Of a stretch of 64,000 nt of DNA, positions 47,088-63,726 are shown one piece after another. How positions within the stretch are numbered: position 1 is the stretch's first letter; every line of letters begins with the position of its first letter. Source of the stretch: Geodermatophilus saharensis (GTDB lineage: Bacteria > Actinomycetota > Actinomycetes > Mycobacteriales > Geodermatophilaceae); assembly GCF_900188205.1 (NCBI RefSeq), contig NZ_FZOH01000009.1, positions 124,001-188,000 of the forward strand, given 5' to 3'. The notes under the pieces are model-generated. The model had not been told where the DNA came from, did not search any database, and saw nothing but the letters and a program-made list of their open reading frames with translations. Position numbers and translations under genes: made by a program.

Positions 47088-47909
47088 TCACTTGCGGCCG
47101 GGGGTCCAGTCCATGCCCCAGCCGTAGGTGCGGTCGAGCACGTCCTGGCCGCCGTGCACGTAGCGCACCTCGCGGTTGACGACGAGCTGACCGCCCTGGT
47201 TCTGGATCATCGCGATGGCGCAGATGCGGGCCCGCGGGTCGTGCTCGTCGAGCCGCACCTCGATCTGCGGCCCGGACGCCGGGTACATCGTGACGACGGC
47301 GTCGGCCTGACCCCAGTTCGGCACGCCCTCGTAGATCAACGCGAACACGAGGATCCGCCGGATCAGCTGCGTGTGCTGCAGGTCGATGAGCAGGTTCTCC
47401 CCGCCGGCGGTCGACCCCGAGCGGTCGTCGCCGTCCAGCCACGCGATCGACTGCCCGTTGCCCAGGTTGTGCTGCCCGCGGAAGGCGTTGCCGAGGGCCT
47501 GGATGACGCCCTTGGAGCCGTCGGCGTACTCGTACAGGCACCCGAGGTCGAGGTCGATGGCGCCGCCGCCGGCCGCCCCGGCGAGCCGCTTGAGGAACCC
47601 GCCACCGCCGCCGGCGCCGCCGGGCCTGGAGTTCCAGTTGAGGTTGACCCTCAGGATCCCGGTGGTGCCGGCTGTCTTGGTGAGCGAGACCGACGGCGCC
47701 GACTTGGTCAGCGACACCTTGCTCATGCTGACGCCGCCGGCCGGCGGGGGCTGCTGCCCGTACTGCTGCTGCCCGTACTGCTGCTGTCCGTACGGCGGCT
47801 GGGCCGGGGGTGCCCCGTACGGCTGTCCCGGCGGCGGCTGCTGGGCCGGCGGCTGCGGGGGCGGCGGCTGCGGCGGCGGGGACTTCGGACGCTTCGTGTA
47901 GTCGACCAA
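47088..47909 (-). CDS. TerD-domain protein with Pro/Gln/Tyr-rich N-terminal tail
   Basis: A 273-residue protein of the TerD (calcium-binding stress protein) family. The first 60 residues are a low-complexity tail, Pro-rich then three Y-G-Q-Q units. The TerD-like beta-sandwich follows from about 65, starting S-K-V-S-L-T-K; acidic residues in A-I-D-L-D-L-G and D-G-D-D-R-S-G correspond to the calcium-binding positions of TerD. The start TTG at 47909 is chosen for its GGAGGG site 6 nt upstream and gives M-V-D-Y-T-K-R-P-K; ATG 47726 would yield a tailless form. It is downstream of an S9-like gene and belongs to the Ter island. Confidence 0.83.
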   Translation of the reverse strand: MVDYTKRPKSPPPQPPPPQPPAQQPPPGQPYGAPPAQPPYGQQQYGQQQYGQQPPPAGGVSMSKVSLTKSAPSVSLTKTAGTTGILRVNLNWNSRPGGAGGGGGFLKRLAGAAGGGAIDLDLGCLYEYADGSKGVIQALGNAFRGQHNLGNGQSIAWLDGDDRSGSTAGGENLLIDLQHTQLIRRILVFALIYEGVPNWGQADAVVTMYPASGPQIEVRLDEHDPRARICAIAMIQNQGGQLVVNREVRYVHGGQDVLDRTYGWGMDWTPGRK

Positions 47910-47988
47910 GGGGAGCCCTCCCGCAGGTCCCCGGCGCACGGGGCCCTGCTCGCTGAGCGGCGGGTACGTGCCCTGACCCTAGGGGCCC

Positions 47989-49752
47989 TCACGGCCCGCG
48001 GTCCGCGCCGCCCTCCTGCGGCCCGTGCACCACGTCGTCGTCCTCGGGATCGCCGGTGCCCGGCGGCGCGACGGGCAGCCAGCGGTCCCACCAGTCGAGC
48101 AGGTGCTCGAACCGGGCCGGGCGGTGCCGGGTGCCGTCACCGGGGACGAGCAGCAGCGCGCCGGGCACCCGGCGCCGCTGGAGCGCGGCGAACAGCCGCC
48201 GGCCCTCCCCTGCCGGGCAGCGCTCGTCCTGCACCCCCAGCGTGGGCGTGACGACGGCGCCCGTGTCGAGGGGGACGTCGTCCGGGTCCGCGTCGGGCGC
48301 TGCGTCGGTCCAGTCGACGACGGCGGCGGCGAACCGGTCGGTGCGGGTCAGCAGCGCCGCGGCGCCCGGCCCGCCGGTGAGCCCGACCCGGCCGGCGTCG
48401 AGGGCCGGGTCGGCGAGGGCGGCGTCGAGCAGGGGGAGCACGTCGCCGTCGCAGCGCAGCGCCGCGTATCCGGCCGAGGCGAGCACCTGCACGTCGTCCG
48501 CCAGCGACCAGCCGGGCGCCCGCCCGCCGGTCACGGCCACCAGCACCGGGTGGGGACCCGGCCCCGGGGGCACGGTCACCCACAGCCGGCGCTCGGTGCC
48601 GTCCGGCGCGACGACGGCGCGCTGCTCGGTGCGGTGCAGCCGGCCCGTGGCACCGAGCGCGGAGCCGAAGCCGGTGAGCAGCCGGCGCCGGCCGGGCGTG
48701 ATCGCCACCAGCTCCCCCGCGGAGCGGTCGTGGGCGACGGTCGCCACGACCACCCCCGCCGCGGCGGCGCAGCCGCGCACGGTGAACGGGCCGTCGACCA
48801 GCGCCGCGGGCGGGCCGCCGTCGAGCGGCACCCGCACGAGCTCCACCGCGCCCTGCCGCGCGACGCCGACCAGCACCGCCCCGCCGTCCGGGGCGAGCGC
48901 CGGCGCGCCGTCGTGGACGACGCCGTCGAGCAGTGGCTCGAGCTCGCCCCCGGACACCCGCACCCGGCACAGCGCCGGGGACGACGCGGCGAGGTCGAGG
49001 CCGTCGGGGCCCAGGTCGGGGCGCGCGGTGACGCAGAGGGTGGTGCCGGAGGCGTCGAACACCGGCTGCCGGCACTCGCCGCTGCTGCGGGTGACCCGCC
49101 GCGGCCGGCCGCCGGTGAGCGGGACCAGGTACACGTCGCGGACGCGGTCGCGGTCGGCACCGGGGTGCCGGGCGGAGACGAAGGCGAGGGCGGCGCCGTC
49201 GGGCGACCAGGCGACGTCGGCGTCGGAGGCGGTGCCGTCGGTGAGCTGCCGCGGCGCGGGCGGCGCGGTGTCGTCGAGCGGGTCCGGGGGCAGGTCGAGG
49301 ACGACCACGCAGGTCCGCGGGACGCCGGCGCGGGTGCTCGGCCCGGTGACCAGCCGCGGCCCGTCGTCGGGGTCGGGCACGGGGGCGACCCAGGCCAGCC
49401 GCCGGGAGTCCGGGGACCACACCGGCGCGCCGGCGCCCAGCGGGGCGTCGGTGAGCCGGCGGGGCGCGCCGCCGGCGGTGGGCAGCAGGTGCACCTGCGG
49501 CGGGTCACCGGGGACGGCGGACAGGTAGGCCAGCCAGCGGCCGTCGGGCGAGAAGGCCGGCGCGGAGTCGGTGGCGCCGGAGGTGAGCGCGCGGGGCGGT
49601 GCGGAGCCGTCGGTGGGCACCGCCCACAGCTGCCCGAGGGGAGCGCCGGTGCGGGGATCGGGCCGGTCGACGGCGACCACCGCCATCCGCCCGTCCGGTG
49701 ACACGGTGGGCGCGCCCGGCGTGCGCACGAGGGCGAGGTCGGCGGGCCGCAT
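47989..49752 (-). CDS. S9 prolyl-oligopeptidase-like protein with degenerate active site
   Basis: A 587-residue protein with a WD40/TolB-like beta-propeller (repeated S-P-D-G-R, F-S-P-D-G-R-W-L-A-Y, W-S-P-D-S-R-R-L-A-W) in residues 1-360 and an alpha/beta hydrolase domain after it. In active family members the nucleophile loop reads G-G-S-Y-G-G; here it is T-G-G-P-G-A-A near 455, so the serine is missing. The usual His-bearing loop before the C-terminal helix is also shortened (G-D-G-T-R-H-R-P). The acid-bearing Q-D-E-R-C-P segment remains. It is therefore probably a non-catalytic binding protein. A TACGCT box lies 9 nt before the ATG. Confidence 0.8.
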   Translation of the reverse strand: MRPADLALVRTPGAPTVSPDGRMAVVAVDRPDPRTGAPLGQLWAVPTDGSAPPRALTSGATDSAPAFSPDGRWLAYLSAVPGDPPQVHLLPTAGGAPRRLTDAPLGAGAPVWSPDSRRLAWVAPVPDPDDGPRLVTGPSTRAGVPRTCVVVLDLPPDPLDDTAPPAPRQLTDGTASDADVAWSPDGAALAFVSARHPGADRDRVRDVYLVPLTGGRPRRVTRSSGECRQPVFDASGTTLCVTARPDLGPDGLDLAASSPALCRVRVSGGELEPLLDGVVHDGAPALAPDGGAVLVGVARQGAVELVRVPLDGGPPAALVDGPFTVRGCAAAAGVVVATVAHDRSAGELVAITPGRRRLLTGFGSALGATGRLHRTEQRAVVAPDGTERRLWVTVPPGPGPHPVLVAVTGGRAPGWSLADDVQVLASAGYAALRCDGDVLPLLDAALADPALDAGRVGLTGGPGAAALLTRTDRFAAAVVDWTDAAPDADPDDVPLDTGAVVTPTLGVQDERCPAGEGRRLFAALQRRRVPGALLLVPGDGTRHRPARFEHLLDWWDRWLPVAPPGTGDPEDDDVVHGPQEGGADRGP

Positions 49753-49779
49753 GGCGCACCGAGCGTAGTGCAGCGGTCA

Positions 49780-49816: not shown

Positions 49817-49824
49817 AAACCGGC

Positions 49825-50811
49825 CTACTGCTGCTGGGCCCGGGCGATCAGCCGCTGGCCGAGCGAGCCGGCCTGGCTGTTGGTGAGCAGCTGCGTCTGC
49901 GACTCGACCAGCCGCAGCACCGCCGGGTCCTCGCGGGCGACCTCGGAGGACTGCAGCAGGATCGTGCCCTGCCCGGTGAAGTCGTACTGCCGCTCCTCAC
50001 CGGAGGCCCGGCCGAGCGCGCCGGAGATCATCCCGCGCAGGTTCTGCGTCATCCACTGCGCGTCGTGGTGCACCGACGGCGACGGGCAGTCGGCCCAGCC
50101 GAGCAGCGCGTCGGGGTCGGCCCGGAACGGCGGCTCGACGAAGATCACCGGCCCGTTGGACGAGGCGATGAACTTGCCCGTGCCGATGAGGGTGACGAAG
50201 CCGGGCACGATCGACTGCTTGAGCTCCAGCTGCTTGGAGAACGCGCAGAGGTTGCTCGCCTTGATCGTGAGGTTGCCGTCGTCGAGGTCGTAGGAGTTCA
50301 GGTCGAACCCGCGGTCGCCGATGAGCAGCTTGCCGTGGCCCTGCGCGACCACCCAGTCGGAGATGTAGACGGGGCTGGAGAACCGGGAGGCGACCCAGGC
50401 CTGCACCGAGGAGTACTCGGTGACGGCGTCGAACCGGACGTCGCCGTAGTAGGCCAGCATCGCGCCCTTGCTCATGAACCACTCACCGCCGGTGAGGGCG
50501 ATGCAGAACACGTAGGGGTTGACGTTGTCGTCGTCGGGCAGCGTGTGCGGGTTGAGCGTGCTCGGCTGCCAGCTCGGCTGACCGCCGGGCGCCGGCTGGC
50601 CGGAGTACGGCGGCGGCTGGCCGTACCCGGGCGGCGGCTGGCCGTACCCGGGCTGGGGCTGGCCGTACGGGGGCTGCGGCTGCCCGTAGGGCTGGGGCTG
50701 CCCGCCGTGGGGCTGCGGCTGGCCGTAGGGCTGGCCGTAGGGGTTGCCCTGCTGCCCGCCGTAGGGGTTGCCCTGCGGCTGGCCGTAGGGGTTGCCGGGT
50801 GGGTAGGTCAT
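49825..50811 (-). CDS. AIM24-family protein with Gly/Pro/Tyr/Gln-rich N-terminal tail
   Basis: A 328-residue protein. Residues 1-80 are a tail of repeated P-Y-G-Q-P-Q and G-Y-G-Q-P-P units; the AIM24 beta-sandwich follows (F-M-S-K-G-A-M-L-A-Y-Y-G-D-V-R-F near 115 and Q-G-H-G-K-L-L-I-G-D-R-G near 165). AIM24 proteins (named from yeast mitochondrial Aim24) have unknown biochemical function in bacteria. It is the last of three tandem paralogues, 10 nt after the second. The start ATG has only a weak ribosome-binding site, consistent with coupled translation. Confidence 0.82.
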   Translation of the reverse strand: MTYPPGNPYGQPQGNPYGGQQGNPYGQPYGQPQPHGGQPQPYGQPQPPYGQPQPGYGQPPPGYGQPPPYSGQPAPGGQPSWQPSTLNPHTLPDDDNVNPYVFCIALTGGEWFMSKGAMLAYYGDVRFDAVTEYSSVQAWVASRFSSPVYISDWVVAQGHGKLLIGDRGFDLNSYDLDDGNLTIKASNLCAFSKQLELKQSIVPGFVTLIGTGKFIASSNGPVIFVEPPFRADPDALLGWADCPSPSVHHDAQWMTQNLRGMISGALGRASGEERQYDFTGQGTILLQSSEVAREDPAVLRLVESQTQLLTNSQAGSLGQRLIARAQQQ

Positions 50812-50821: not shown

Positions 50822-51466
50822 TCAGAACTTCTTCTCGCTGGCCTGCACGTACACGGTGCCGTGACCGCCGATCCGCAACTGGAACGCCTCGCCGGACCCG
50901 CGGCCCACGACGTCGCGGAAGCCGACCTTGGCCGCGAGGTCCACGGTGAGCTGCCCGACGTGCCCGACGTAGGCCTGCGGGTCGACGCCGATCTGCTGCC
51001 CCTGCAGCTGCAGCGGGAAGGCGCCGCCGTGCGAGAGCAGCGCGACTGCGCCGCGACCGTGGACGTTGGTGGTGAACAGGCCCTGCCCGGTCATCGCGCC
51101 GCTGATCGCGGACTTCAGGCCTCCGGAGCCGAGGAACTGCACGCTGGTCTGCAGCGTCGCGTCGTGCGCCAGCAGCCGGTCGGCCTCGCACACCAGCGGC
51201 GCGCCGCCGTCGAGCTCGAGGACGGTGACGTGCAGGCCCTTGTGGCCGTAGAGCACCTGGCCGGTGCCCTCGGTGGCCATCATCGGGTTGGACTCGCCCG
51301 ACATCGCCGCGCCGACCATGCCGCCGATGCCGCGGCCCTGCCCGTGGACGGGGCGGAAGGCGACCTGCCCGGAGTAGCCGAGCATCGAGCCGCGGCGGGC
51401 GAGCACCGGGGTGCCGGGGCTGACGTGCGCGCGCACGACCTTGCTGTTGACGGTCTCGAAGGGCAT
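50822..51466 (-). CDS. AIM24-family protein
   Basis: A 214-residue tailless AIM24-domain protein. Seen are P-V-L-A-R-R-G-S-M-L-G-Y-S-G-Q-V-A-F near residue 20, G-T-G-Q-V-L-Y-G-H-K-G-L-H near 67, and G-G-H-G-T-V-Y-V-Q-A-S close to the end, the repeated G-x-G-x-V strand motif of the family. It starts 3 nt after the first AIM24 gene and ends 10 nt before the third. The ATG has a GGAG site within the upstream gene. The function is unknown; a membrane-associated or complex-forming role in the stress island is inference. Confidence 0.8.
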   Translation of the reverse strand: MPFETVNSKVVRAHVSPGTPVLARRGSMLGYSGQVAFRPVHGQGRGIGGMVGAAMSGESNPMMATEGTGQVLYGHKGLHVTVLELDGGAPLVCEADRLLAHDATLQTSVQFLGSGGLKSAISGAMTGQGLFTTNVHGRGAVALLSHGGAFPLQLQGQQIGVDPQAYVGHVGQLTVDLAAKVGFRDVVGRGSGEAFQLRIGGHGTVYVQASEKKF

Positions 51467-51469
51467 GGC

Positions 51470-52087
51470 TCAGCGCTCCGCGGACTGGACGAGCACCAGG
51501 CCGGAGCCGGTGAACCGGAGGGAGAACGGCTCGCCGGCGTCCTCGCCGACGAGCGACTTCCACGAGACGCCCGACACCAGGTTCATCGACAGCTGGCCGC
51601 GGGAGCCGACGTAGGCGTCGGGGTCGACGACGAGGTCGGCGCCGGGTGCGACCTCCAGCGCCATGACCGGGCCCTCGGAGACGATCGCGACCTGCCCGTG
51701 CCCGGTGACCGTCGTCGTCGCCAGGCCGTGGCCGCTGGTCATCCCGCGCAGGCCGGCGAACTGGACGTCGAGGCGCAGCTGCTCGGTGTGGGCCAGGATG
51801 TGCTCGCTCTCCACGGTGAGGGTGTCGCCGGCGAGGTCGACGACGAGGACGTCCATCGCGTCGAGCGCGAGGTAGACCCGGCCGTGGCCGGCGCAGTCCA
51901 TGAGGGAGAGGCTCTCCCCGGCGACGGCGCGCTTGAGCGCCGCCCGCATGCCGCCGCCCCCGCCCATGCCGGAGCTCTTGAAGTCGACGTTGCCCTCGAA
52001 GGCGACCATCGAGCCGCTGGCGGCCCGGATGCGGTCGCCCTGCAGGTCGGCGTGCAGGACGCGTTTGTGGGCGGTGAGCAGTGCCAC
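51470..52087 (-). CDS. AIM24-family protein, first of three
   Basis: A 205-residue AIM24-domain protein. It shows the characteristic G-S-M-V-A-F-E-G-N-V-D-F near 26, C-A-G-H-G-R-V-Y-L-A near 65, V-T-G-H-G-Q-V-A-I-V near 127, and F-T-G-S-G-L-V-L-V-Q near the end. The GTG start follows GAGAGG. It heads a three-gene operon of diverged paralogues (51470, 50822, 49825), clearly related by the same strand motifs but low in overall identity by eye. No signal peptide or membrane helix is seen. Confidence 0.8.
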   Translation of the reverse strand: MALLTAHKRVLHADLQGDRIRAASGSMVAFEGNVDFKSSGMGGGGGMRAALKRAVAGESLSLMDCAGHGRVYLALDAMDVLVVDLAGDTLTVESEHILAHTEQLRLDVQFAGLRGMTSGHGLATTTVTGHGQVAIVSEGPVMALEVAPGADLVVDPDAYVGSRGQLSMNLVSGVSWKSLVGEDAGEPFSLRFTGSGLVLVQSAER

Positions 52088-52228: not shown

Positions 52229-53335
52229 TCAGCGCCGGCCGGCGGCGATCTCCTCGTCCCGGTGCTCCGCGGCGGGGACGGGCTCGGCGGCCCGCTCCCG
52301 ACGGGACTCCACGACGCTGCTGATGACCGCGGCGACGATGAACAGCAGCCCGGTCAGGCCGGTCACGTACTCGCTGATGTGGAACCGCAGCTCGAGGATC
52401 ATGATCGCGGCGAGGAAGCCGATGGCCCACATGGCGCCGTGCTCCAGGTAGCGGTACTCGTCGAGCGTGCCCTTGTCGACCATGTAGATGGTCAGCGACC
52501 GCACCCAGAAGGCGCCGATACCCAGGCCCAGCGCGATGATGAAGATGTCGCTGCTGATGGCGAAGGCGCCGATGACGCCGTCGAAGGAGAAGGACGCGTC
52601 GAGCACCTCCAGGTAGAGGAACGCCGCGGCGCCCGCGCCGGCGACGGCCTTGGTGGCGGTGCCGGTGGTCGACCCGCCGGTCGCGGTGACGTCGTCGGCG
52701 TCGTCCTCCTCCGGGGCCTCCATGAGCTCGTTGAGGCCGCCGATGAGCAGGTAGGTGAACAGGCCGGCGATGCCGGAGACCAGCACGGTGGCGTACTTGT
52801 CGTCGTCGGCGATCTGCGACCCGACGTAGATGACCGCCAGCGCGATCACGATGGCTAGGTAGGGCAGCTTGCCGGCCTTGGCCAGCGGCCGCTCCAGCCA
52901 CGACAGCCAGTGGATCTCCCGCTCCTCGTCGAAGAGGAAGTTGAGGAAGATCATCAGCAGGAAGATGCCACCGAAGGTGTAGATCGCCTCGGCCGCGGCC
53001 TCGACGTTCTCGCCGTAGGCCTGCTGGTCGGTCAGCGCGAGGTCCCAGACCTCGGGGATCGACAGGCCCGCGGTGACCGACACCAGCACGATCGGCAGCA
53101 GCAGCCGCATGCCGAACACGGCGATGAAGATGCCGACGTAGAGGAACAGCTTGCGCCACAGCGGGCTCATCCGGCGCAGCACCTTGGCGTTGACCACGGC
53201 GTTGTCGAACGACAGGCACACCTCGAGCACGCCGAGGACGGCGACGGCGAGGAGTGCGGCCGGTCCGCCGAAGAACACGGCGGTGACGAGCGCGGCCACC
53301 GTCAGACCGACGGAGAAGCCGAAGTAGCGGAGCAT
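52229..53335 (-). CDS. DUF475 / TerC-like integral membrane protein
   Basis: A 368-residue membrane protein with about nine hydrophobic helices. Two acidic membrane motifs are typical of the TerC superfamily: E-V-C-L-S-F-D-N-A-V near 38 and D-A-S-F-S-F-D-G-V-I near 245; the Asp residues are believed to bind or carry metal ions. The loop near 205-220 is acidic (E-E-D-D-A-D-D). The frame is open to 53557, but the ATG at 53335 with AAAGGAA upstream gives the expected N-terminus. It is divergent from the coiled-coil gene (237-nt region without recognisable boxes) and forms one flank of the Ter island. Confidence 0.9.
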   Translation of the reverse strand: MLRYFGFSVGLTVAALVTAVFFGGPAALLAVAVLGVLEVCLSFDNAVVNAKVLRRMSPLWRKLFLYVGIFIAVFGMRLLLPIVLVSVTAGLSIPEVWDLALTDQQAYGENVEAAAEAIYTFGGIFLLMIFLNFLFDEEREIHWLSWLERPLAKAGKLPYLAIVIALAVIYVGSQIADDDKYATVLVSGIAGLFTYLLIGGLNELMEAPEEDDADDVTATGGSTTGTATKAVAGAGAAAFLYLEVLDASFSFDGVIGAFAISSDIFIIALGLGIGAFWVRSLTIYMVDKGTLDEYRYLEHGAMWAIGFLAAIMILELRFHISEYVTGLTGLLFIVAAVISSVVESRRERAAEPVPAAEHRDEEIAAGRR

Positions 53336-53571: not shown

Positions 53572-54843
53572 GTGGGCGGGCTCGGTGGGAACCCCGCTCC
53601 CCGCTGGTGGCGGCGCGACCGGGAGGCGGGGCGGCGCGAGGCGGTCGCGGCGCGCGAGGCCGCCGCCGCGGCGATGCTCGAGCTGGACGCGGCGCTGGCC
53701 GACCTGCCCGACGCGATGGCCGCCGCCGAGGAGGCCGGCGCCACCGCCGGTGGCCCGCGGGGCCGGCGTGCGGTCGCCGTCCCGCCGGAGCTGGCGCGCG
53801 ACTGGCACGCCCTGTCGACGCACGCCGACGCCGTCATCGGCTCCTACCTGCAGGCCGTCGCCCGGCACGACGACGTCGACGAGCCGGCCCGCGCCCACGC
53901 CGCGACGCGGGAGCTGGGCGCCGCCGCGACCGCGCTGCGCGGCGTCCTCGACCAGGTGCGGCGCTTCCGGGAGCAGTACGGCGAGGTGCTCGCCGCCGCC
54001 GCCCGCGTGCGCGCCACCGCCCGGACGGCGGTGTCCGCCGCCTCCGCCGCGCTCGCCGACGCCCGGACCGCGCTGGCCGCCGCCTCCTCCGCCGAGCTCA
54101 CCGACCCCGGGGTGCCGGCCCTGCTCGACGACGCCGCTGCCGCGCTGGCCGGCGCCGAGACCGCCCTGGCGCAGCGCCGGGCCGCCGACGCCGTCGCCGC
54201 GGCCGAGCGGGCCCGCCGGGGGGCCGACGCCGCCGCCGACCGGCTCCGGAGGCTCCCCGAGCGGGCCGCCGAGGTGCGCCGGGGCGCGGCGTCGGTGCGC
54301 ACCCGCCGGGAGGCGCTGGGCACGCGGCACGAGCGGCTGGCGCCGGTGATGAGCGAACTGCGGCGGCGCTATCCGCTGTCGGCGTGGGCCGACGTCGAAC
54401 GGGCTCCGCAGCGGGCGGCCGAGGCGCTCGCTGCGGCCGACGCGGCGCTCGGCGCGCTGGAGGCGGCGCTGGCCGCGCCCGTCCTCGACGTGCCGGAGGC
54501 CGCCGCGCAGCTGGCGCGGGTCCGCGCGGCGGCCGGCCGGGTCGACGACGAGGTGCGCGCGGCGACCGGGCGGCTGGCGCGGCTCGACGCCGTCCGGGCC
54601 GATCCGGGGTCGCTGCTGGCCGGGGTGCAGCGCGGCGTCGTCGACGCGCGGCGGTTCCTCGCCGGGCTGCCCGAGGAGCGGGGCCGCCGCTACCGCCGGA
54701 CCTTCGAGGACCTCGCCCGGCGGCTGCCCGCGCTGGAGGCGGCGGCCCGGGGCGACCGGCCGGACTGGGGCGCGGTGCTGCGCGAGGCGGAGTCGATCGA
54801 GCAGGGCCTGGCCGGGCTGGTGCGCACCGCCCGGGCGGAGTAG
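53572..54843 (+). CDS. Alanine-rich coiled-coil protein
   Basis: A 423-residue protein, very rich in Ala, Arg and Glu, that is nearly all helix with predicted coiled coils over most of residues 20-400. No enzyme motif, signal peptide or membrane helix is seen. It is the only plus-strand gene of the island, divergent from the DUF475 gene and ending 8 nt from the proline dehydrogenase stop. The GTG start has GGAGGGAGA upstream. Coiled-coil proteins accompany Ter systems in other bacteria, where they may act as scaffolds; that role is inference here. Composition bias makes homology statements risky. Confidence 0.75.
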   Translation: MGGLGGNPAPRWWRRDREAGRREAVAAREAAAAAMLELDAALADLPDAMAAAEEAGATAGGPRGRRAVAVPPELARDWHALSTHADAVIGSYLQAVARHDDVDEPARAHAATRELGAAATALRGVLDQVRRFREQYGEVLAAAARVRATARTAVSAASAALADARTALAAASSAELTDPGVPALLDDAAAALAGAETALAQRRAADAVAAAERARRGADAAADRLRRLPERAAEVRRGAASVRTRREALGTRHERLAPVMSELRRRYPLSAWADVERAPQRAAEALAAADAALGALEAALAAPVLDVPEAAAQLARVRAAAGRVDDEVRAATGRLARLDAVRADPGSLLAGVQRGVVDARRFLAGLPEERGRRYRRTFEDLARRLPALEAAARGDRPDWGAVLREAESIEQGLAGLVRTARAE

Positions 54844-54851
54844 CGGCCGTC

Positions 54852-55727: not shown

Positions 55728-55748
55728 GCGGTCACCCTGCCAGAGGCC

Positions 55749-56555
55749 TCAGGCCCGCTCGAGCAGCCAGCGGACGATCTCCTCCCCCGCCGCCGCGCCG
55801 GTGGCCGCGGTGACGGCCACCCGGCTGCCGGTCCAGCCCTGCTCGTGCAGCTCGCCGTGCGCGGGCCGGACGGCGGCGTCGGCGGCGAGCAGCATCGGCG
55901 CGTCGAGCAGGCTGTCGCCGGCGCACAGCAGCCGCGGCGCGGGCCCCTCCCCCGCCAGCAGCCGGCGCAGCCGCAGCAGCCCGCCGGCCTTCGACAGCCC
56001 GGCGGGGACGACGTAGACCTTGCGGCCCTGCACGCTCAGCGTGGCGCCCGCGGCGCTCGCGGCGGCGGTGGTGGCAACCAGCCAGTCCGCCGGGATGCCC
56101 TCGCGGGTGTGCGCCACGAGGTAGCCGAACAGGCCCTCGGCCGGGCGCACGGTGCGCACCCACGGCTCGCCGGCCACCGCCTCCAGCGGGGCGAGCAGCT
56201 CGGCCAGCGGCGCCGCCTGCGCCGCGGTGGCCGCCGCCCAGGCGTCCCAGTCGGGGTCGCGGACGCCGTCGACGAGGAGGACGCCGCCGTTGCCGCACAG
56301 CGCGTAGCGGGGCACCAGCGGCAGCCGCACCCGCTCGTACTGGGCGGCGGTGCGGGTGGTCACCGGGACGACGAGGGCGCGGCGGCCGAGCTCGGCCAGC
56401 AGCTCCCAGGAGACCGGCGTGGCGTGGCTCAGCGGGGCGCCGTCGAGGTGCTCGACGACTGCCAGCCCGTCGGTGCCCCCGGCCGCGGACGCGGAGTAGA
56501 TCAGCGTCCGGTCGAGGTCGACGGCGGCGAGGGTGGCGGGGAGGACCGCGGTCAC
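55749..56555 (-). CDS. HAD-superfamily phosphatase (Cof/SPP-like)
   Basis: A 268-residue HAD hydrolase. The catalytic D-L-D-R-T (Asp13, Asp15, Thr17), the T-T-R-T motif near 65, Lys in L-S-K-A-G-G near 195, and G-D-S-L-L-D near 222 are all present, so it should be an active phosphatase. In Ter clusters such HADs are thought to remove phosphate from an intermediate made by the neighbouring phosphoribosyltransferases. The GTG at 56555 overlaps the StiP gene stop (GTGA); the longer open frame upstream is not used. Confidence 0.87.
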   Translation of the reverse strand: MTAVLPATLAAVDLDRTLIYSASAAGGTDGLAVVEHLDGAPLSHATPVSWELLAELGRRALVVPVTTRTAAQYERVRLPLVPRYALCGNGGVLLVDGVRDPDWDAWAAATAAQAAPLAELLAPLEAVAGEPWVRTVRPAEGLFGYLVAHTREGIPADWLVATTAAASAAGATLSVQGRKVYVVPAGLSKAGGLLRLRRLLAGEGPAPRLLCAGDSLLDAPMLLAADAAVRPAHGELHEQGWTGSRVAVTAATGAAAGEEIVRWLLERA

Positions 56556-57679
56556 CGGGTCACCGGCCGGATCAGCCCGACGCAGGAGTAGGGCAGGCCG
56601 GGCACCTCCACCAGCGGCACCCCGCGGGCCTGCGCGAGGGCGACGACGTGCCGCAGGTCGGCGGCGCGGTCGGGCCGGACCAGCACCTGCCAGGGCACGC
56701 GGCGCAGCAGCACCCGGGTGGTCTCCCCCACGCCGGGCTTGACCAGGTTGACGTCGGCGACGCCGTGGTCGGCCGCGATCCGCTCCACCGCCGCCCACCC
56801 GGCCCAGGTCGGCCGGCGCCGCGCGGCGGGGACGTCGTCGGCCGGGGGCCGGGTGGGGAAGGCGGCGGCGACGGTGTCGACGAACAGCTCCGACACGTCG
56901 GAGCCGGCGAGCTCGGCGTAGTACTTCGCGCCGTGGAACATGCCGGGGCCGATGAGGTCCTCGCGCAGCACCGTCCGCGACACCAGCCCGGACACCGTGC
57001 TGTTGAGGCAGGCGCTGGGGATGAGGAAGTCGTCGCGGGTGCCGTACAGCTCGGTGCAGACGCCGGGGTCGGCGAGCACGGCGAGCCGGTCGTCGAGGGC
57101 GGCGTCCTCCGGGTGCGCGGCGACCCAGCCGGCGACGGCCTCGGTCAGCTGCCGCTGGATGGCGCCCTTGCCGGTCCAGCCGTCGACGAACCGCAGCGCG
57201 CCGGCCGGGTGGCGGGCGAGCACGTGCGCCATCGCCACCTCGTCGATGCCCCGGCCGCGGATGATCGAGATCGTGTAGTGCGGCACGTCGACGCCGCGCG
57301 AGGCCCGGTACCAGCGGCGCAGCAGCACCCCGATCGGGGTGCCGGCGCGGGCCAGCGAGACCAGCACCGGCCGGTGCCCGGCCGCGGCCGCGGCGTCCCA
57401 CACCAGCTCCCCGACCCGGGCGACGGCGTCGGCGAGCCGGCCGGCCGACTGCTCCAGCGCGGTCGTGAACAGCGCGAGGTAGGCGTCGTCGGGCTGGTAC
57501 TCGACCGGCAGCATCTCCGAGTAGTGGGTGCCCGACTGGATGGCCTCCTCGCGGTCCTCGGTGCCGCGCTCGAGCGCCACGCCGGACAGGTCGGTGAGCA
57601 GCCAGGTGACGTCCTCGGCCGGGTAGGAGCCGAACCGGCCGGGGACGGCGGCCGTGAGCGGGGGCTGCAGCGCGGTCAC
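56552..57679 (-). CDS. StiP/PRTase-like protein with C-terminal PELOTA RNA-binding domain
   Basis: A 375-residue Ter-cluster protein. The N-terminal part matches the StiP family (also described as a phosphoribosyltransferase-like or cysteine-protease domain): G-T-H-Y-S-E-M-L-P-V-E near 52, L-A-R-A-G-T-P-I-G near 105, and F-V-D-G-W-T-G-K-G near 164, a plausible PRPP loop. The C-terminal 70 residues (about 305-375, A-D-V-N-L-V-K-P-G-V-G-E-T-T-R-V-L-L) match the PELOTA RNA-binding domain. It is found almost only in Ter metabolite operons. The GTG at 57679 overlaps the PRTase-TRSP stop (GTGA). Confidence 0.85.
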   Translation of the reverse strand: MTALQPPLTAAVPGRFGSYPAEDVTWLLTDLSGVALERGTEDREEAIQSGTHYSEMLPVEYQPDDAYLALFTTALEQSAGRLADAVARVGELVWDAAAAAGHRPVLVSLARAGTPIGVLLRRWYRASRGVDVPHYTISIIRGRGIDEVAMAHVLARHPAGALRFVDGWTGKGAIQRQLTEAVAGWVAAHPEDAALDDRLAVLADPGVCTELYGTRDDFLIPSACLNSTVSGLVSRTVLREDLIGPGMFHGAKYYAELAGSDVSELFVDTVAAAFPTRPPADDVPAARRRPTWAGWAAVERIAADHGVADVNLVKPGVGETTRVLLRRVPWQVLVRPDRAADLRHVVALAQARGVPLVEVPGLPYSCVGLIRPVTR

Positions 57680-58947
57680 GGTGCGGGCTCCCAGAGCGGC
57701 ACCGGGACCACGTGGACGGCGCGGGCGGCGAAGGGGCGCAGCGCCTGCGCCAGCGGGGCAGCGTCGGCGGCCGGGGCGTCGACGACGACCACGACGTCGT
57801 CGGCGCGCAGGTCCGACCAGGGACCGTGCGCCGGGACGGCGGCGGGATCGGCGAGGTTGTGCACCCGCGAGGTGCGGGACGGGTCGTCCGGCGCGGGGAA
57901 GGACAGGCTGCGGCGCAGGGCGTAGCCGGGGTCGTCGGCGGCGTGCACGGGGCTCCGGGTGGTCGACTGGGTGGTGACGGGGACGCCCGCCAGCCGCCCG
58001 GCGAGGGCGGCGGCGAGCACGGTGGGCGCGTACACGAACTCCTCGGTGCCGAGCACGAGGACCCCGCGGCTGCCGGCCAGCGCCGGCGCGAGCGCGGCGG
58101 CCGCGGTGCCGGCGGCCGCGTGCAGCCGGGCGGTCCCGGCGGCGGTCAGCCCGTGGCGGGCCGTGGTCGGCGCGCCCGCCGGCCACAGTCCCTCGTGCAC
58201 CCGCACCGCGCCGGGAGCGCCGGCCGGGATCGGCGCCGGGGCGGGCAGCGCGGCTCGGGCGGCCGCGGCGCGCGCCAGGACGTCGTCGGGGAGGGTGAGC
58301 GCGGTGGTGAGGACGGCGGCGACGTCGACCCGCACGCCCAGCGCGGCGGCGCGCTCGGCGAAGGCGGCCCGCGCCGCGGGCGGGCGGGCGTCGAGCAGGG
58401 TGCCGACGACGTAGCGCTCCCGCGGCCAGCGGGCGTGCAGCTCGGCGACGGTGTTGAGCGCGGTGCGCCCGCTGGTCAGCTCGTCGTCGACGAGCACCAG
58501 CGGGCCGGGCGCGTCGAGGCCCACGGGGCCGGCCGGCTGCAGGGCGTGGGCGACGGCGTGGGAGTGCTCCTCCTCGAACGCGGCCGCCACCGGCACGCCC
58601 GGGTGGACCCGTCGCGTGGTCGACAGCGCGGCCGCACCGAGCCGTGCGGCGGCGGCGTGCCCGAGTCCGGTGGCGGTCTCGCAGTAGCCGATCACCAGGC
58701 CGGGCACCTCCCCGCCCAGGACGGCGGCCACGGCGTCACCGACGGCGTGCGCGGCAGCCAGGACCTCGGCGGGGGCGACCGGCACGTGCTTGCCGAGGAC
58801 GCGGGAGACGACGAGGTGGGCCCGGCGCGGGTTGTCCCGCAGCGCCAGGCCGCACAGCCGCGCGAAGCGGCCGGGGTCGGACACCCCGACGTCGAGCAGC
58901 GCGGAGACGGTGCCGGCGAGACCCGCCGGGACGATCGTGGCGGTCAC
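57676..58947 (-). CDS. Phosphoribosyltransferase with C-terminal TRSP domain
   Basis: A 423-residue protein. The phosphoribosyltransferase domain spans about 20-220, with the PRPP-binding loop L-V-L-V-D-D-E-L-T-S-G-R-T near 146-158 and the E-E-E-H-S-H-A segment before it. The C-terminal part carries the eponymous T-T-R-S-P motif near 330 of the TRSP domain, always linked to this PRTase type. It presumably makes a ribosylated or nucleoside-like product from PRPP. GTG overlaps join it to the CitE gene upstream (58947) and the StiP gene downstream (57676), so the three are translated as a block. Confidence 0.87.
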   Translation of the reverse strand: MTATIVPAGLAGTVSALLDVGVSDPGRFARLCGLALRDNPRRAHLVVSRVLGKHVPVAPAEVLAAAHAVGDAVAAVLGGEVPGLVIGYCETATGLGHAAAARLGAAALSTTRRVHPGVPVAAAFEEEHSHAVAHALQPAGPVGLDAPGPLVLVDDELTSGRTALNTVAELHARWPRERYVVGTLLDARPPAARAAFAERAAALGVRVDVAAVLTTALTLPDDVLARAAAARAALPAPAPIPAGAPGAVRVHEGLWPAGAPTTARHGLTAAGTARLHAAAGTAAAALAPALAGSRGVLVLGTEEFVYAPTVLAAALAGRLAGVPVTTQSTTRSPVHAADDPGYALRRSLSFPAPDDPSRTSRVHNLADPAAVPAHGPWSDLRADDVVVVVDAPAADAAPLAQALRPFAARAVHVVPVPLWEPAP

Positions 58948-60146
58948 GCGCGGCGGACCTCGCCGCCGGCGAAGACCTCCGCCACCCGGCGCTCCCCGGC
59001 CGACAGCAGGTCGACCAGCGCCGCCTCGTCGGCGACCACGCCGTAGACGGCGGCGCGGCGGCTGATCAGCTCCGCCCACAGCGCGTGCGGTCCGATCTCG
59101 TTCATCCGGCCGTTGCCGGAGACCGCGATGCCGCCCTGGCCGCGTGCGGTGAGGATCTCGAGGGCGTCGTCGTACTCGGTGCGCGAGACGGTCAGCAGCG
59201 CGTTGACCACCGAGACGTGCGCCGGGTGGATCACGGTCTTGCCGAGCACCCCGTTGGCCTTGTCGAGGGCGACCTCGCGCACCAGGCCGTCGAGGTCGCC
59301 GGCGATCATCCGCTGCCGCAGCCGGCCCTCGTGCTGCTCGGTGAACGGGGACTGGCGCAGCTGCGGCTTGAACAGCCGGGGGCCGGGGATGTGCTCCCAC
59401 ACCGCGCCGGTGACCACGTGCTCGCCGCCGCGGGTGAACCGGTTGACCACGTCGGCCAGGCAGTCCCGCACGACGGCGACGTCCCAGATCGTGGTGTCGC
59501 GGTCGCGGCGCAGGCCGAACAGCCCCGACAGGTCGGTGCCGCCCACGCGCAGGCACAGCACCTGCTCGCGGTGGGCGTCGACGACCGCGGCGAGGGCGGC
59601 CAGCGCCTCGGCGCGGGTCTCCCGCCACGCGAGGTCGGGCGTCTCGAGGATCGGCATGCCGTAGAGCGGGTGCCCGGTGTCGGCGGTGACCTCGGCGATC
59701 GCCTCGAGCATCGGCCCGAGGGTCGCGCCGGTGGCCTTGGGCAGGCTGAACCCGGTCAGCCGGGCCAGCGCCGGTCCCGCCCCGACGGCGATCGAGCGGA
59801 TCTGCTCCGGCGTGCGCACCCGCACGAACACCAGCGGCAGCGGCGCCGGGTCGCCCTCGGTGACCCGCCGGTCGATCCGCTGCAGCGCGGCGACGACGTT
59901 GGCCTCGGCCTCCCCCACGGCGGCGTGCGGGATGGCGTCCTCCAGGCACCACACGGTGCTCGTGGCGCCCGCGGCGGCGGCCCGGGCGGCGTCGGCGTCC
60001 AGGGACGGCCGGGTGCCGGGGCTGTAGAGGGTCGCGCCGAGGGCCAGGGCGAGCATGGCGCGCGGCGTGGCGGGGCCGATCTCCCCCGGCGGGACGGCGA
60101 AGAGCCGCTCGCGCTCGTCGTCGGTCAGGTAGGCGAAGTGGCGCAC
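58944..60146 (-). CDS. HpcH/HpaI aldolase / CitE-like lyase
   Basis: A 400-residue TIM-barrel aldolase of the CitE-like type found in Ter clusters. Visible motifs are W-C-L-E-D-A-I-P near 68 (acidic metal ligand), V-F-V-R-V-R-T-P, F-S-L-P-K-A-T-G near 130, M-P-I-L-E-T-P-D near 165, and K-T-V-I-H-P-A-H near 308. It probably forms or breaks a C-C bond in the metabolite pathway. The GTG start follows GAGAGGGA. About 70 nt separate it from the TerD-VWA gene upstream; the stop overlaps the PRTase gene (GTGA). Confidence 0.87.
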   Translation of the reverse strand: MRHFAYLTDDERERLFAVPPGEIGPATPRAMLALALGATLYSPGTRPSLDADAARAAAAGATSTVWCLEDAIPHAAVGEAEANVVAALQRIDRRVTEGDPAPLPLVFVRVRTPEQIRSIAVGAGPALARLTGFSLPKATGATLGPMLEAIAEVTADTGHPLYGMPILETPDLAWRETRAEALAALAAVVDAHREQVLCLRVGGTDLSGLFGLRRDRDTTIWDVAVVRDCLADVVNRFTRGGEHVVTGAVWEHIPGPRLFKPQLRQSPFTEQHEGRLRQRMIAGDLDGLVREVALDKANGVLGKTVIHPAHVSVVNALLTVSRTEYDDALEILTARGQGGIAVSGNGRMNEIGPHALWAELISRRAAVYGVVADEAALVDLLSAGERRVAEVFAGGEVRRA

Positions 60147-60217: not shown

Positions 60218-61600
60218 TCAGGGACGCAGCAGGCCCTGGGCCCGCGCCCGCTGCAGCCAGCCGGGGTACTCGGTCATCAGCCGGTCGAACAGCGCGTCGT
60301 CGCCGATCGGCCGGCGGCCCATGAGGTCGTCCTGGTCGACGGCGAAGAAGTCGGCGTTGTCGGTGAACCGGCCCTCGAGGTCGTCGAGCCGCTGCAGGTA
60401 GGAGAACTGCCGCTCCGGGCCGATGCCCATGAACTGCCAGAACACCGGCTCGTAGGACGCCGCACGGATCTGCCGGGTGGCCACCGCCTTGTCACTGGGC
60501 GCCCCGTCGGTCAGGAACATGACGTAGACGGGCACCTGCGCCGGCTGGGGCTCGGCGCGCTCGCGGCTGTCGCCGAAGTAGGCCTGGCGGACGGCGGCCA
60601 TCGCGGCGCCGTAGCGGGTGTCGTACTCCAGCGGGTACCGGTGGGTGAGCTCGGCGATGTACTGCTGGTGGCCCTCCAGTCGCAGCCCCGGCTCGGGCCG
60701 GTGCACGTCCTTGCCGAAGAGGAAGACGTCCACGACGCCGTCGTCGTCGAAGCGCAGTCCCAGCGCGAGCACCCGCTCGGCCAGCCGCTGCACGGCGCCG
60801 GCGCGGTACAGCGCGGCCATCGAGCCGGAGATGTCGAGCACCAGCGCGACGCGGGCGGTGTGCTCGCCCAGGCCCCGCTTCTGCAGGCTGACGCCGGCGG
60901 TCTTGACCAGGCTGAGCATCTGCGGCGCCTGCGCCGACAGCTTCTTCTCCAGGTCGACCAGCCGGCGCTTCTCCATGCTGACCGGCGGTGCCGCCGGCGG
61001 GGGCGGGGCGGACGGTGCGGCGGCGGGGGCCGGTGCGGCGGCGGGGGCAGCGGCAGGCTCGTCGTCGACGCTGACGCCGACGTCGGTGGCCATGGCCGCC
61101 AGGCCGCCGGTGTAGCCCTGCCCGACCGCGCGGACCTTCCACTCGCCGCCGCGGCGGTAGACCTCGGCGAAGACCAGGGCGGTCTCCGGCCCGGCGGCCA
61201 GCTCGCAGCGCACCGCGGCCGGGGCGCCGCCGTCGGGGGCCACCTCGACGGCGAGGCCGGTGAGCGCGCCGAAGGTGCCCGCGCCGTCGAGGGAGGCGCC
61301 GATGACGACCTTCTCCACGTCGGCGGGCAGCGCGGCGGGGTCGATGCGGACCTGGTCGACGGTCCCGCCGCCGCGGGTGGACTTGCCGAGGTGGCGCACC
61401 GCGCCGCCGGCGCCGGCGGGCTGGTTGTAGAAGACGAAGTCGTCGTCGCTGCGGACCCGGCCGGCGCCGGTGGTGAGGAACGCCGAGAGGTCGGCGTCGA
61501 CGCCGGGCGCCGGGTTCCAGGTGAGGGTGACGACGACGGGACCGGTCAGGCCGGCCTGGGCCAGGCCGACGTTGCCGCCGCGGGTGAGGACGTGGACCAC
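60218..61600 (-). CDS. terF: TerD-VWA protein (TerF-like)
   Basis: A 460-residue two-domain protein. Residues 1-165 are a TerD-like domain (G-N-V-G-L near 10, D-A-D-L-S-A-F-L and D-D-D-F-V-F-Y-N near 55). A Pro/Ala-rich linker (about 170-200) and a conserved helical stretch follow, then a von Willebrand A domain (about 240-430) with the MIDAS motif D-I-S-G-S-M near 252 and T-D-G-A-P-S-D near 365. In Ter systems such proteins are proposed to bind metal and protein partners. It is preceded by terD on the same strand with a terminator between, so it has its own promoter, though no clear box was found. Confidence 0.88.
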
Positions 61601-61759
61601 GCTGCTGCCGCTCAGCCGGAGGAGCGGGCGGTGCGCGGGTGGACGGCGGGCACGTCAGCGGGCATGGCGGGGTCGGACCTCCGGTCTCGGGCGGGTGCGG
61701 AAGCGCGCGGACAGTACGTCGGGCGGGCCCGGAACGGGAGGGATCGGCGCGCGGGGCGG

Positions 61760-61794
61760 CACCGGGCCCGGACGGGTGCCGTCCGGGCCCGGTG
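61760..61794 (-). terminator. Strong hairpin after terD
   Basis: A perfect 16-bp stem (61760-61775 with 61779-61794, core CCGGGCCCGGACGG) and a GTG loop, starting only 6 nt beyond the terD stop. Confidence 0.75.
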
Positions 61795-61799
61795 GTGGG

Positions 61800-62381
61800 T
61801 CAGCCGACGTTGACGCCGAAGTCCTGGGCGATGCCGCGCAGGCCCGAGGCGTAGCCCTGGCCGACGGCGCGGAACTTCCAGTCGGCGCCGTTGCGGTAGA
61901 GCTCACCGAAGACCATGGCGGTCTCGACCGAGGCGTCCTCGGTGAGGTCGTAGCGGGCGATCTCCTGGCCGTTGGCCTGGTTGACGATGCGGATGAACGC
62001 GTTGCGCACCGCGCCGAAGTTCTGCTTGCGGTTGTCCGCGTCGTAGATCGACACCGGGAAGACGATCTTGTCGACCGTCGGCGGCACGCCGGCCAGGTTC
62101 ACCTGGATGACCTCGTCGTCGCCCTCGCCCTGGCCGGTGAGGTTGTCACCGACGTGGACGACCGAGCCGTCGGGGCTGCGGAGGTTGTTGAAGAAGACGA
62201 AGCCCGAGTCGTCGGGGGTGACCCTGCCGCCGGCGTCGAGCATGATCGCCGACGCGTCGAGGTCGAAGTCGCCCCCGGAGAACGTGTTGACGTCCCAGCC
62301 GAGGCCCACGTTCACCGCGGTCAGGCCCGGCGCCTCCTTGGTCAGCGAGACGTTCCCGCCCTTGGAGAGGCTGACACCCAT
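61800..62381 (-). CDS. terD: Tellurium resistance / stress protein TerD
   Basis: A 193-residue classic TerD protein, a cytoplasmic calcium-binding beta-sandwich tied to tellurite, phage and oxidative stress. Diagnostic features: V-S-L-S-K-G-G-N-V-S-L-T-K at the N-terminus, L-G-W-D-V-N near 32, F-D-L-D-A-S-A near 43, G-E-G-D-D-E-V-I-Q-V-N-L near 88 with calcium ligands, and R-Y-D-L-T-E-D near 142. The ATG at 62381 with GGGAG upstream is preferred over an in-frame ATG at 62396. It sits between terC and terF-like genes. Confidence 0.95.
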   Translation of the reverse strand: MGVSLSKGGNVSLTKEAPGLTAVNVGLGWDVNTFSGGDFDLDASAIMLDAGGRVTPDDSGFVFFNNLRSPDGSVVHVGDNLTGQGEGDDEVIQVNLAGVPPTVDKIVFPVSIYDADNRKQNFGAVRNAFIRIVNQANGQEIARYDLTEDASVETAMVFGELYRNGADWKFRAVGQGYASGLRGIAQDFGVNVG

Positions 62382-62510
62382 CTGTTGGACTCCCATGTCT
62401 GTCGGGTCGCGCAGCGGCGGTCGCCGCTGGCGAGCACGCCGGACGGGCCGGCGTCACCGGCGGGTGCGCAGGCGCGGGCGCCCGGCGCTGTCCCCCGGTC
62501 CCGCTGCGCG

Positions 62511-62529
62511 GGGTGCCGGTCGGGCACCC
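62511..62529. other. Small inverted repeat between terC and terD
   Basis: GGGTGCC (62511-62517) and GGCACCC (62523-62529) form a 7-bp inverted repeat with a 5-nt spacer in the 247-nt gap between the terC stop and the terD start. It may be a terC terminator or an operator for terD; nothing else is recognisable in this gap. Confidence 0.3.
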
Positions 62530-62628
62530 AGCGGAGCGGAGGTGTCTCGGATACTGCCGCACGGTCACCGGGAGCAACAGGTGCCGTGACGCGGACGGGT
62601 CACCGCCGGCGCGGCCTGCCCGGCCCGG

Positions 62629-63726
62629 TCAGGCCGGGGGCGCGGGCCGCGCGGGACGCGGCTGCTCCTCGCCCTGCCGCTCCGCGGTCGGCACGCCGGT
62701 CTCGCCCGCCACCGCGGCCGCACCCCGGCCGACGGTGCCCTGCGCGGCCGCCTCCCGGGCGTCGCGGCGGCTGCGCGCGAGGCTCGCGACCGTGGTGATG
62801 AACAGCGTCACCACGATGACCGCGAGCGACAGCCAGGTGGGCACCTCGGGGATGGCGGTGACGTGCTCGCCGCCGTTGATGAACGGCAGCTCGTTCTCGT
62901 GCAGCGCGTGGATGAGCAGCTTGATCCCGATGAAGCCGAGGATGACCGCCAGGCCGTAGTGCAGGTAGACCAGCCGGTCGAGCAGGCCGTCGATGAGGAA
63001 GAACAGCTGGCGCAGGCCCAGCAGGCTGAAGGCGTTGGCGGTGAAGACGAGGAAGGTCTCCTGCGTCAGGCCGAAGATCGCCGGGATCGAGTCGACGGCG
63101 AAGAGGATGTCGGCGCTGCCGATGGCGACCAGCGCGATGGCCAGCGGGGTGATGAACCGCCGGCCGTCGATCTTCGTGGTCAGCCGGTCGGAGTGGTACT
63201 CCTGCGTCGTCGGCACGATCTTGCGGGTGAGCCGCAGGAACGCGTTCTCCTTGAACTCGTCGTCGTCGTGGCCGCTGGCCCGGGCCTGCGCGACGGCGGT
63301 GTAGATGAGGAACGCGCCGAACAGGTAGAAGACCCAGCTGAAGTTCTCGATGGCCGCGGCGCCGAGGAAGATGAACACCGTCCGCAGCACCAGGGCGAAG
63401 GCGATGCCGAACAGCAGCACCTTCTGCTGCAGCTCCCGCGGCACCGCGAAGCTGGCCATGATCAGGACGAAGACGAACAGGTTGTCCACCGAGAGGCTCT
63501 TCTCGGTGATGTAGCCGGCGAAGTACTCACCGCCGAACTGTCCGCCGGCGAAGACCCACACCAGGATCCCGAAGACGATGGCCAGCGCGACGTAGATCGC
63601 CGACCACGTCGCCGACTCGCGCAGCGTGGGGGCGTGCGGCGTGCGCACGTGGCCGACGAAGTCGAACGCGATCATCCCGACGATCGCGGCGACGGTGATC
63701 CCCCACACCCAGAGCGGGACGTCCAT
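62629..63726 (-). CDS. terC: TerC-family integral membrane protein
   Basis: A 365-residue membrane protein with about nine helices. The TerC signatures are present: S-L-S-V-D-N-L-F-V-F near 78 with the conserved Asp, and L-F-A-V-D-S-I-P-A-I-F-G near 200. TerC proteins are linked to tellurite resistance and, in better studied members, to manganese export or metal loading of exported enzymes. The C-terminal 50 residues are a Glu/Ala/Pro-rich cytoplasmic tail. The ATG at 63726 with GGAGGAA upstream is preferred over an upstream in-frame ATG at 63747. It is probably the promoter-proximal gene of the island. Confidence 0.94.
   Translation of the reverse strand: MDVPLWVWGITVAAIVGMIAFDFVGHVRTPHAPTLRESATWSAIYVALAIVFGILVWVFAGGQFGGEYFAGYITEKSLSVDNLFVFVLIMASFAVPRELQQKVLLFGIAFALVLRTVFIFLGAAAIENFSWVFYLFGAFLIYTAVAQARASGHDDDEFKENAFLRLTRKIVPTTQEYHSDRLTTKIDGRRFITPLAIALVAIGSADILFAVDSIPAIFGLTQETFLVFTANAFSLLGLRQLFFLIDGLLDRLVYLHYGLAVILGFIGIKLLIHALHENELPFINGGEHVTAIPEVPTWLSLAVIVVTLFITTVASLARSRRDAREAAAQGTVGRGAAAVAGETGVPTAERQGEEQPRPARPAPPA

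Follow-up and report, generated by a model that had tools for sequence, protein, structure and literature searches.

What might stand in for TelA in a Ter stress-response island that has no TelA, and what becomes of the island's chemistry when the usual ATP-grasp partner is missing as well? These questions are raised by a 64,000-nucleotide stretch of the genome of Geodermatophilus saharensis, from a genus found in soil and rock (G000:C19:124001-188000; genome size, 4.9 Mb), called the window here, which carries a group of Ter-type genes at positions 47088 to 63726. The Ter stress-response system was reportedly described by Anantharaman, Iyer and Aravind in 2012; to our knowledge, Ter systems are widespread, and neither their product nor their architecture has been settled. 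The island resembles that system in bringing together TerD, a vWA/TerF protein, the TerC superfamily, two phosphoribosyltransferases (PRTases), a CitE-like lyase and a HAD protein. It differs in that the window's genome has no TelA and no convincing Ter-type ATP-grasp, and in that the island contains three AIM24 genes and a coiled-coil protein without a family name, here called COIL. The best overall explanation, to which we give an even chance, is an accessory Ter system in which COIL would be the scaffold in TelA's place and the enzyme module would operate free of ATP-grasp.

COIL accompanies StiP in related genomes

COIL (53572-54843, plus strand; 423 residues) has no Pfam match of its own, and its family members match Pfam only here and there, in coiled-coil families. 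Its alignment, judged by eye, appears all-helical, with a mostly conserved N terminus rich in Trp and Arg. Searches of the literature by term found no description of this nameless protein; the founding 2012 paper lay outside the search, and a prior mention is possible. No COIL was found in plasmids and phages.

Its distribution was followed in three genome sets: the 61 nearest genomes, 26 genomes of the genus (the window's own included) and 374 genomes of the class. Among the 61 nearest genomes, the 22 with StiP are exactly the 22 with TerD; of these, 18 have COIL, the other 4 have TelA and none has both, while the remaining 39 have none of StiP, TerD, COIL and TelA. Within the genus, COIL is present in 12 of the 13 StiP-positive genomes and in 0 of the 13 StiP-negative ones. 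At class level, StiP was over the cut-off in 88 genomes and a strong COIL match was found in 53, comprising 52 of the 88 StiP-positive genomes versus 1 of the 286 StiP-negative genomes (G074, which is 78% complete). The class-level search considered 4 candidates per genome, against up to 30 in the 61-genome search, so that misses are possible; weak COIL matches in G071, G093, G329 and G363 (E values of 2.9e-7 to 8.7e-4) were left out of the count, as were sub-cut-off matches to StiP in G177 and to TelA in G093. COIL and StiP share a contig in 51 of the 52 genomes, with starts 2.3 to 12.5 kb apart, and lie on different contigs in one draft.

COIL and TelA alternate at StiP loci

TelA has no match in the window's own genome. 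In 93 loci that were read directly for the two genes (flanks of about 10 kb; some places were fetched twice and count as two loci), COIL is present in 28, TelA in 47, both in 0 and neither in 18, and TelA is therefore taken to be common rather than obligatory. When the StiP tree is labeled by the accompanying gene, the COIL/TelA label changes four times by parsimony, and at least two of these changes are forced by well-supported branches; one genome, G020, was labeled TelA-local although its StiP and TelA are on separate contigs. The two proteins show no detectable kinship. Comparison of their profiles by hhalign gave a probability of 0.1, which was matched by shuffled columns, and the 25 Pfam families listed for 21 COIL members do not include TelA. 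The idea that COIL is a divergent TelA (PF05816) was ruled out by this profile comparison.

Because the partners are the same, the two genes alternate at the locus and their sequences are unrelated, we read the pattern as non-orthologous displacement. Judged from sequence, COIL is thus a candidate non-homologous stand-in for TelA. Extracts of PMC7824862 assign TelA and TerF to sub-membrane structures, and by analogy with TelA a sub-membrane scaffold role may be carried over to COIL.

Two genomes of family f32, G096 and G146, have StiP loci (L206-L209) without COIL or nearby TelA. In these, some 10 to 13 kb without any profiled gene separate the enzyme module from TerX, DUF475 and TerD, and they perhaps represent a third type of Ter locus.

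The enzyme module occurs without a Ter-type ATP-grasp

The sequence-only reading, made from the letters of this DNA before any database search, had found no sign of the usual ATP-grasp partner in the island and proposed looking for it in the rest of the genome. A PF15632 profile search agreed with it, finding no Ter-type ATP-grasp in the island and no convincing one in the genome. Two matches, of 61 and 28 bits, were found in the genome; the first lies in a 741-residue frame and is over the Pfam cut-off, but matches of 57 to 63 bits recur in the StiP-negative congeners G003, G007, G008 and G011-G015, and the StiP-positive G005 and G006 have no match above 30 bits. Scores of 100 bits or more were obtained in 5 of the 61 nearest genomes, 3 of which (G039, G052 and G054) are StiP-positive with ATP-grasp within 12 kb of StiP; the other two, G036 and G060, are without StiP. 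Across 80 StiP loci (counted at E below 1e-20), ATP-grasp is present in 40, compared with 0 of the 9 named Geodermatophilus loci. As it went unseen in 40 of the 80, it is either optional or located further away. We concluded that the window's version of the Ter system works without ATP-grasp or borrows an unrelated enzyme.

The StiP loci of Paenibacillus have the same CitE-PRTase-StiP-HAD order as the window, and they differ from it in that most also have TelA, three TerD genes and, following HAD, an ATP-grasp. No COIL was seen in the Bacillota loci read, with flanks of about 10 kb.

A divergent proline-dehydrogenase-like gene (54852-55727, minus strand; Pfam Pro_dh, E value of 8e-11) lies between HAD and COIL and was considered as a substitute for ATP-grasp. 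It was ruled out because it occurs in 0 of the 80 StiP loci, because three of the four genomes with relatives of it (71 to 83% identical, located elsewhere) are StiP-negative, and because another frame occupies the gap in Geodermatophilus nigrescens (L034, about 11900-12820), where an alpha/beta-hydrolase-like frame is read by eye instead. Positions 54840-55746 of the window have no counterpart in the Geodermatophilus obscurus locus. The gap between HAD and COIL seems to be a slot for extra genes, and the proline-dehydrogenase-like gene is probably a private insertion and not a part of the Ter system.

StiP models as a phosphoribosyltransferase

Four minus-strand genes form the enzyme module: a CitE-like C-C bond lyase (58944-60146, 400 residues; C-C_Bond_Lyase, PF15617, E value of 3e-104), a PRTase_2 plus TRSP protein (57676-58947, 423 residues; E values of 7e-56 and 4e-29), a StiP plus PELOTA_1 protein (56552-57679, 375 residues; E values of 5e-102 and 6e-34) and a HAD-IIB-like phosphatase (55749-56555, 268 residues). 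Neighboring genes overlap by 4 bp each, which suggests translational coupling, and the module is probably coupled in this way. In the lyase, E168, D205 and D295 are among the residues invariant in 37 aligned sequences, and its profile matches citrate and acyl-coenzyme A lyases in the PDB. The HAD protein has no Pfam match and only NCBIfam HAD-IIB matches, below the curated cut-off. The HAD motif residues D13, D15, T17, K189, G213, D214 and D218 are invariant in its 26 aligned sequences, and its profile matches trehalose phosphatases in the PDB at an E value of 1e-21.

No sequence relatives in the PDB were found for StiP or PRTase_2-TRSP, and both were modeled with AlphaFold2. The PRTase_2-TRSP model, from a 56-sequence alignment, has a predicted local distance difference test score (pLDDT) of 92, and its best Foldseek match is adenine phosphoribosyltransferase (APRT; E value of 4e-6). 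The StiP-PELOTA model, from 63 sequences, has a pLDDT of 90, and its best matches are hypoxanthine-guanine phosphoribosyltransferase (HGPRT) and PyrR (probability of 0.99), with L7Ae-type proteins found too; no peptidase fold is among the best 50 of 932 Foldseek rows. StiP thus models as a type I PRTase fold of the HGPRT/PyrR kind joined to an L7Ae-like domain, not as the cysteine protease of its Pfam title. Two features count against this assignment. The Foldseek E values are modest (best, 1.7e-3; none at 0.001 or below), and the equivalent of the phosphoribosyl pyrophosphate (PRPP) loop reads D-G-W-T-G-K-G, invariant in 63 rows, with G replacing the second acidic residue of what we take to be the usual consensus. 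This loop and the extra L7Ae-like domain set StiP apart from the known type I PRTases, among which the APRT fold resembles the PRTase_2 model and the HGPRT/PyrR fold the StiP model.

The PRTase reading of StiP contradicts the Pfam title and agrees with earlier work, since extracts of PMC5512222 place two PRTases in the Ter system, extracts of PMC5571608 associate a Ter PRTase with PELOTA, and a phage homologue of StiP carries the annotation "phosphoribosyl transferase." That homologue, 45% identical, lies at 7244-8275 of MT836648.1, a 15-kb record of a Bacteriophage sp. from human feces. StiP and PRTase_2 gave nothing in a sequence-level hhalign comparison. In the TRSP domain, we saw by eye a PRTase-like order of strands and helices without a PRPP motif; hhalign of TRSP against PRTase_2 gave a probability of 19 (P = 0.0013, the best of seven comparisons), no more than a hint that TRSP may be a second PRTase domain that has degenerated. 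Control by a riboswitch was ruled out by Rfam searches, which found no family at gathering score in seven loci and, in the window stretch, three implausible matches that were all under gathering score.

The island and its boundaries

Family calls on the window's proteins were made with Pfam and NCBIfam, and fetched loci were annotated with profiles made from those proteins. Pfam placed the families named by the sequence-only reading where it had put them, the HAD protein being recovered through its NCBIfam matches, invariant motifs and PDB match. Upstream of the lyase gene on the minus strand are a TerD protein (61800-62396, 198 residues; PF02342, E value of 1e-82) and a TerF-like protein joining TerD and vWA (60218-61600, 460 residues; E values of 5e-40 and 1e-55). 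On the other side, the DUF475 gene (52229-53335, minus strand; 368 residues, E value of 1e-110), which encodes a membrane protein of the TerC superfamily, diverges from COIL across 236 bp. Beyond it are three minus-strand AIM24 genes, at 51470-52087 (E value of 2e-37), 50822-51466 (7e-35) and 49825-50811 (3e-11), the last with an N terminus rich in Pro, Gln and Tyr in its translation.

Pfam supports two of the three TerD-domain proteins originally claimed, one of them with VWA. The third, TerX (47088-47939, minus strand), is a divergent TerD-like protein with no Pfam match up to an E value of 1, recognized by homology only: its residues 13-283 align (phmmer, E value of 1e-62) to residues 197-452 of a 452-residue Bacillota protein whose N-terminal part is TerD. 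From this alignment, the homology of TerX is to the C-terminal portion of two-domain TerD proteins from Bacillota. Repetitive N termini rich in Pro, Gln and Tyr are a feature of both TerX and the third AIM24 protein. With TerD-domain proteins (two by Pfam and one by homology), DUF475 in the unit, a TerF-like vWA protein and a biosynthetic module, the families bear out the proposal of an island of the kind attributed to Anantharaman, Iyer and Aravind, as that system is represented in extracts of PMC7824862 and PMC5512222. The description "complete" did not hold, both TelA and a Ter-type ATP-grasp being absent, and the original gene list, sound in its families, had missed COIL on the plus strand and the proline-dehydrogenase-like and S9/TolB-like genes.

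The grouping of these genes is more than chance. The same order (TerC, TerD, TerD-vWA, CitE-PRTase-StiP-HAD, COIL on the opposite strand, DUF475, AIM24 and S9-like) recurs in nine named Geodermatophilus loci (L032-L040) and in the genus members L113, L114 and L116, so that the synteny comparison proposed at the outset, together with the coinciding TerD and StiP sets, came out in favor of the island. The nine named StiP proteins nearest to that of the window (79 to 91% identical) are all from Geodermatophilus. All 80 StiP loci have StiP and HAD; PRTase is present in 77, CitE-like in 76, TerD in 75, COIL in 20 and AIM24 in 11. The locus print-out drops overlapping frames and so hides single genes in some loci, such as the COIL of L040, which is present in the COIL alignment; TerX and the flavin mononucleotide (FMN) dehydrogenase lie beyond the edge of some fetched loci, and contig ends truncate several of the loci. 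All 12 Geodermatophilus genomes with a COIL-type island have AIM24 in triplicate, and it is found neither in the 13 StiP-negative genomes nor in G020. Other triple AIM24 matches lie beside StiP in G056, about 15 kb from StiP in G040 and on a separate contig in G034.

GC content is 70 to 82% per 2-kb step across the window, and the island is therefore not marked by composition. Its limits came from island-free relatives. Most island-free congeners possess a close counterpart of the FMN dehydrogenase to its left. Of the 13 StiP-negative sites, nine were fetched (G011, G015, G024 and G025 were left out), and all nine read FMN dehydrogenase, S9-like, a second TerC and Alx-type TerC, with no TerD, StiP, COIL, AIM24 or TerX at an E value of 1e-4. 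In eight, the right flank that follows is the same (85 to 92% DNA identity over about 7 kb), and the ninth, L220, whose contig ends after roughly 1 kb, has no flank match in that stretch. The second TerC at these sites (L212-L220) is 49 to 54% identical to the window's TerC. Across the 26 genomes of the genus, a tandem TerC pair is present in 13 of 13 without StiP, and a single Alx-type TerC is at the locus in the 12 with a COIL-type island; in the remaining genome, G020, StiP, TerD and TelA are on other, short contigs. The island and the second TerC therefore replace each other at one slot, and the Alx-type TerC (62629-63747, minus strand; PF03741, E value of 3e-50; NCBIfam TerC/Alx) and the S9/TolB-propeller-like protein (47989-49752, minus strand; Pfam PD40), present in island-free species, are core genes flanking it. 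The S9-like protein reads GLTGGPGAA at the usual catalytic Ser motif, presumably GxSxGG in S9-type proteins, and is perhaps a pseudo-peptidase. The accessory Ter system thus occupies about 13 kb bounded by the S9-like gene and the Alx-type TerC, and TerX lies just outside. The sequence-only reading had the island in the right place and had included both core genes in it; its two TerC-superfamily proteins were each confirmed by Pfam, and only the DUF475 protein belongs to the island.

A Ter island in Blastococcus (L101, L105 and L107), from the same family, sits in the slot that the window's island fills, with the S9-like gene on one side and the Alx-type TerC on the other. DNA of its right flank is 87 to 88% identical to the window in L105 and L107, and none was seen in L101. 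This island differs from the window's in having TelA for COIL and another order and orientation, with enzyme-module DNA 65 to 68% identical. Blastococcus StiP falls in a well-supported set of the tree that excludes Geodermatophilus StiP. Given the same slot, a TelA island of different order and a StiP placed elsewhere in the tree, the slot appears to have been filled more than once. Alignments of promoter regions were tried and gave no result.

Proposed working and alternative explanations

In the scheme that we propose, the APRT-like PRTase_2-TRSP, the HGPRT/PyrR-like StiP-PELOTA, the CitE-like lyase and the HAD phosphatase would synthesize or alter a small compound resembling a nucleoside, and would do so without the ATP-grasp found in addition at many Bacillota loci. 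Binding of a ligand or metal would fall to TerD, TerD-vWA, TerX and the AIM24 proteins, which would gather beneath the membrane together with the DUF475 protein, and COIL would provide the sub-membrane scaffold, the role of TelA in other Ter systems. A metal-sensing role, as originally suggested, is predicted from family names only. The link to phage defense comes from the literature; 0 of 10 proteins scanned matched PADLOC-DB at an E value of 0.01, the scan covering ten of the 15 genes and leaving out AIM24, S9-like and TerX. That COIL is a dedicated structural subunit of Ter systems and has traded places on more than one occasion with TelA, to which it is unrelated, so that the scaffold would be widely needed and exchangeable beside a synthesis arm (two PRTases, a C-C lyase and a phosphatase) without an ATP-grasp ligase, is a tentative proposal, to which we give somewhat less than an even chance.

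Several observations weigh against this scheme, and some of them fit a different explanation, in which COIL would be a linked passenger that serves some unrelated function, such as cell division or polarity, and stays near the Ter genes through common descent. With coiled-coil profiles, weak matches come out inflated, and the commonest Pfam family among COIL members is EzrA (7 of 21), which is also among the generic-looking coiled coils matched in the PDB (E value of 1.5e-4); this weak resemblance favors the passenger, as does G040, where about 0.9 Mb separate COIL from StiP and the 16 kb read around COIL contain no other profiled Ter family. The association of COIL with StiP in the class (Fisher P = 1.6e-38) comes from a test that ignores kinship, and a single exchange within Geodermatophilus is compatible with the TerC tree, so that the counts within the genus are not independent. 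TelA was found in 72 of the 374 class genomes, of which 43 are StiP-positive; the other 29 are StiP-negative, and TelA therefore has other roles. Both COIL and TelA are present in 16 of the 88 StiP-positive class genomes (14 in family f33), where by eye TelA is always either more than 200 kb from StiP or on a different contig, although in drafts a different contig may still be near. Among the 43, G127 and G132, both without COIL, are the only genomes in which TelA was seen by eye to share a contig with StiP and to lie no more than 10 kb from it, many of the others being drafts with the genes on separate contigs. Nine StiP-positive genomes, all of family f32, have neither gene, and AIM24 occurs also in StiP-negative genomes of other genera, mostly as one gene each. 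The passenger explanation is nevertheless rather unlikely in our judgment, given that all but one of the 53 genomes with strong COIL are StiP-positive and belong to several families, that COIL in the genus follows StiP, and that COIL and TelA alternate at the StiP loci of relatives.

The enzyme module admits other interpretations. Its StiP-PELOTA arm might act on RNA, binding kink-turn-like RNA and exchanging or removing a base, or regulating translation as PyrR does. Among the best structural matches of the StiP model are PyrR, which has a PRTase fold and acts as an RNA attenuator, and RNA-binding proteins of the L7Ae type, and extracts of PMC5571608 describe a PELOTA_1 domain modeled on L7Ae with kink-turn RNA. 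The overlaps of the StiP gene with the second PRTase and HAD phosphatase genes, in a row with the CitE-like lyase, read instead as small-molecule chemistry, and together with the Rfam results make an RNA target unlikely. The names of the two TerC-superfamily proteins and of the TerD family could also denote a cluster for plain metal or tellurite resistance, its enzyme module serving only to support redox or nucleotide repair. The Alx-type TerC is, however, a core gene outside the island, and island-free species hold a second TerC at the slot. In addition, extracts of the descriptions of Geodermatophilus poikilotrophi and four Blastococcus species list potassium tellurite among the compounds scored positive, so that the trait, for strains not matched to genomes, does not obviously track the island. 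We consider a plain resistance cluster quite improbable.

Conclusions

The accessory Ter system of the window is genuine and conserved, a variant form of a known kind of island, with a function that would lie in metabolite synthesis and assembly at the membrane. The point of most interest is COIL with its exchange with TelA; two corrections are called for, to the label of StiP and to the island boundary. If StiP is taken for a phosphoribosyltransferase instead of a protease, a different assay is needed, and the core chemistry is narrowed by a four-gene module that occurs without ATP-grasp. An unrelated replacement for TelA would show what the missing role is, that of a helical partner, and may provide a second handle for finding its contacts.

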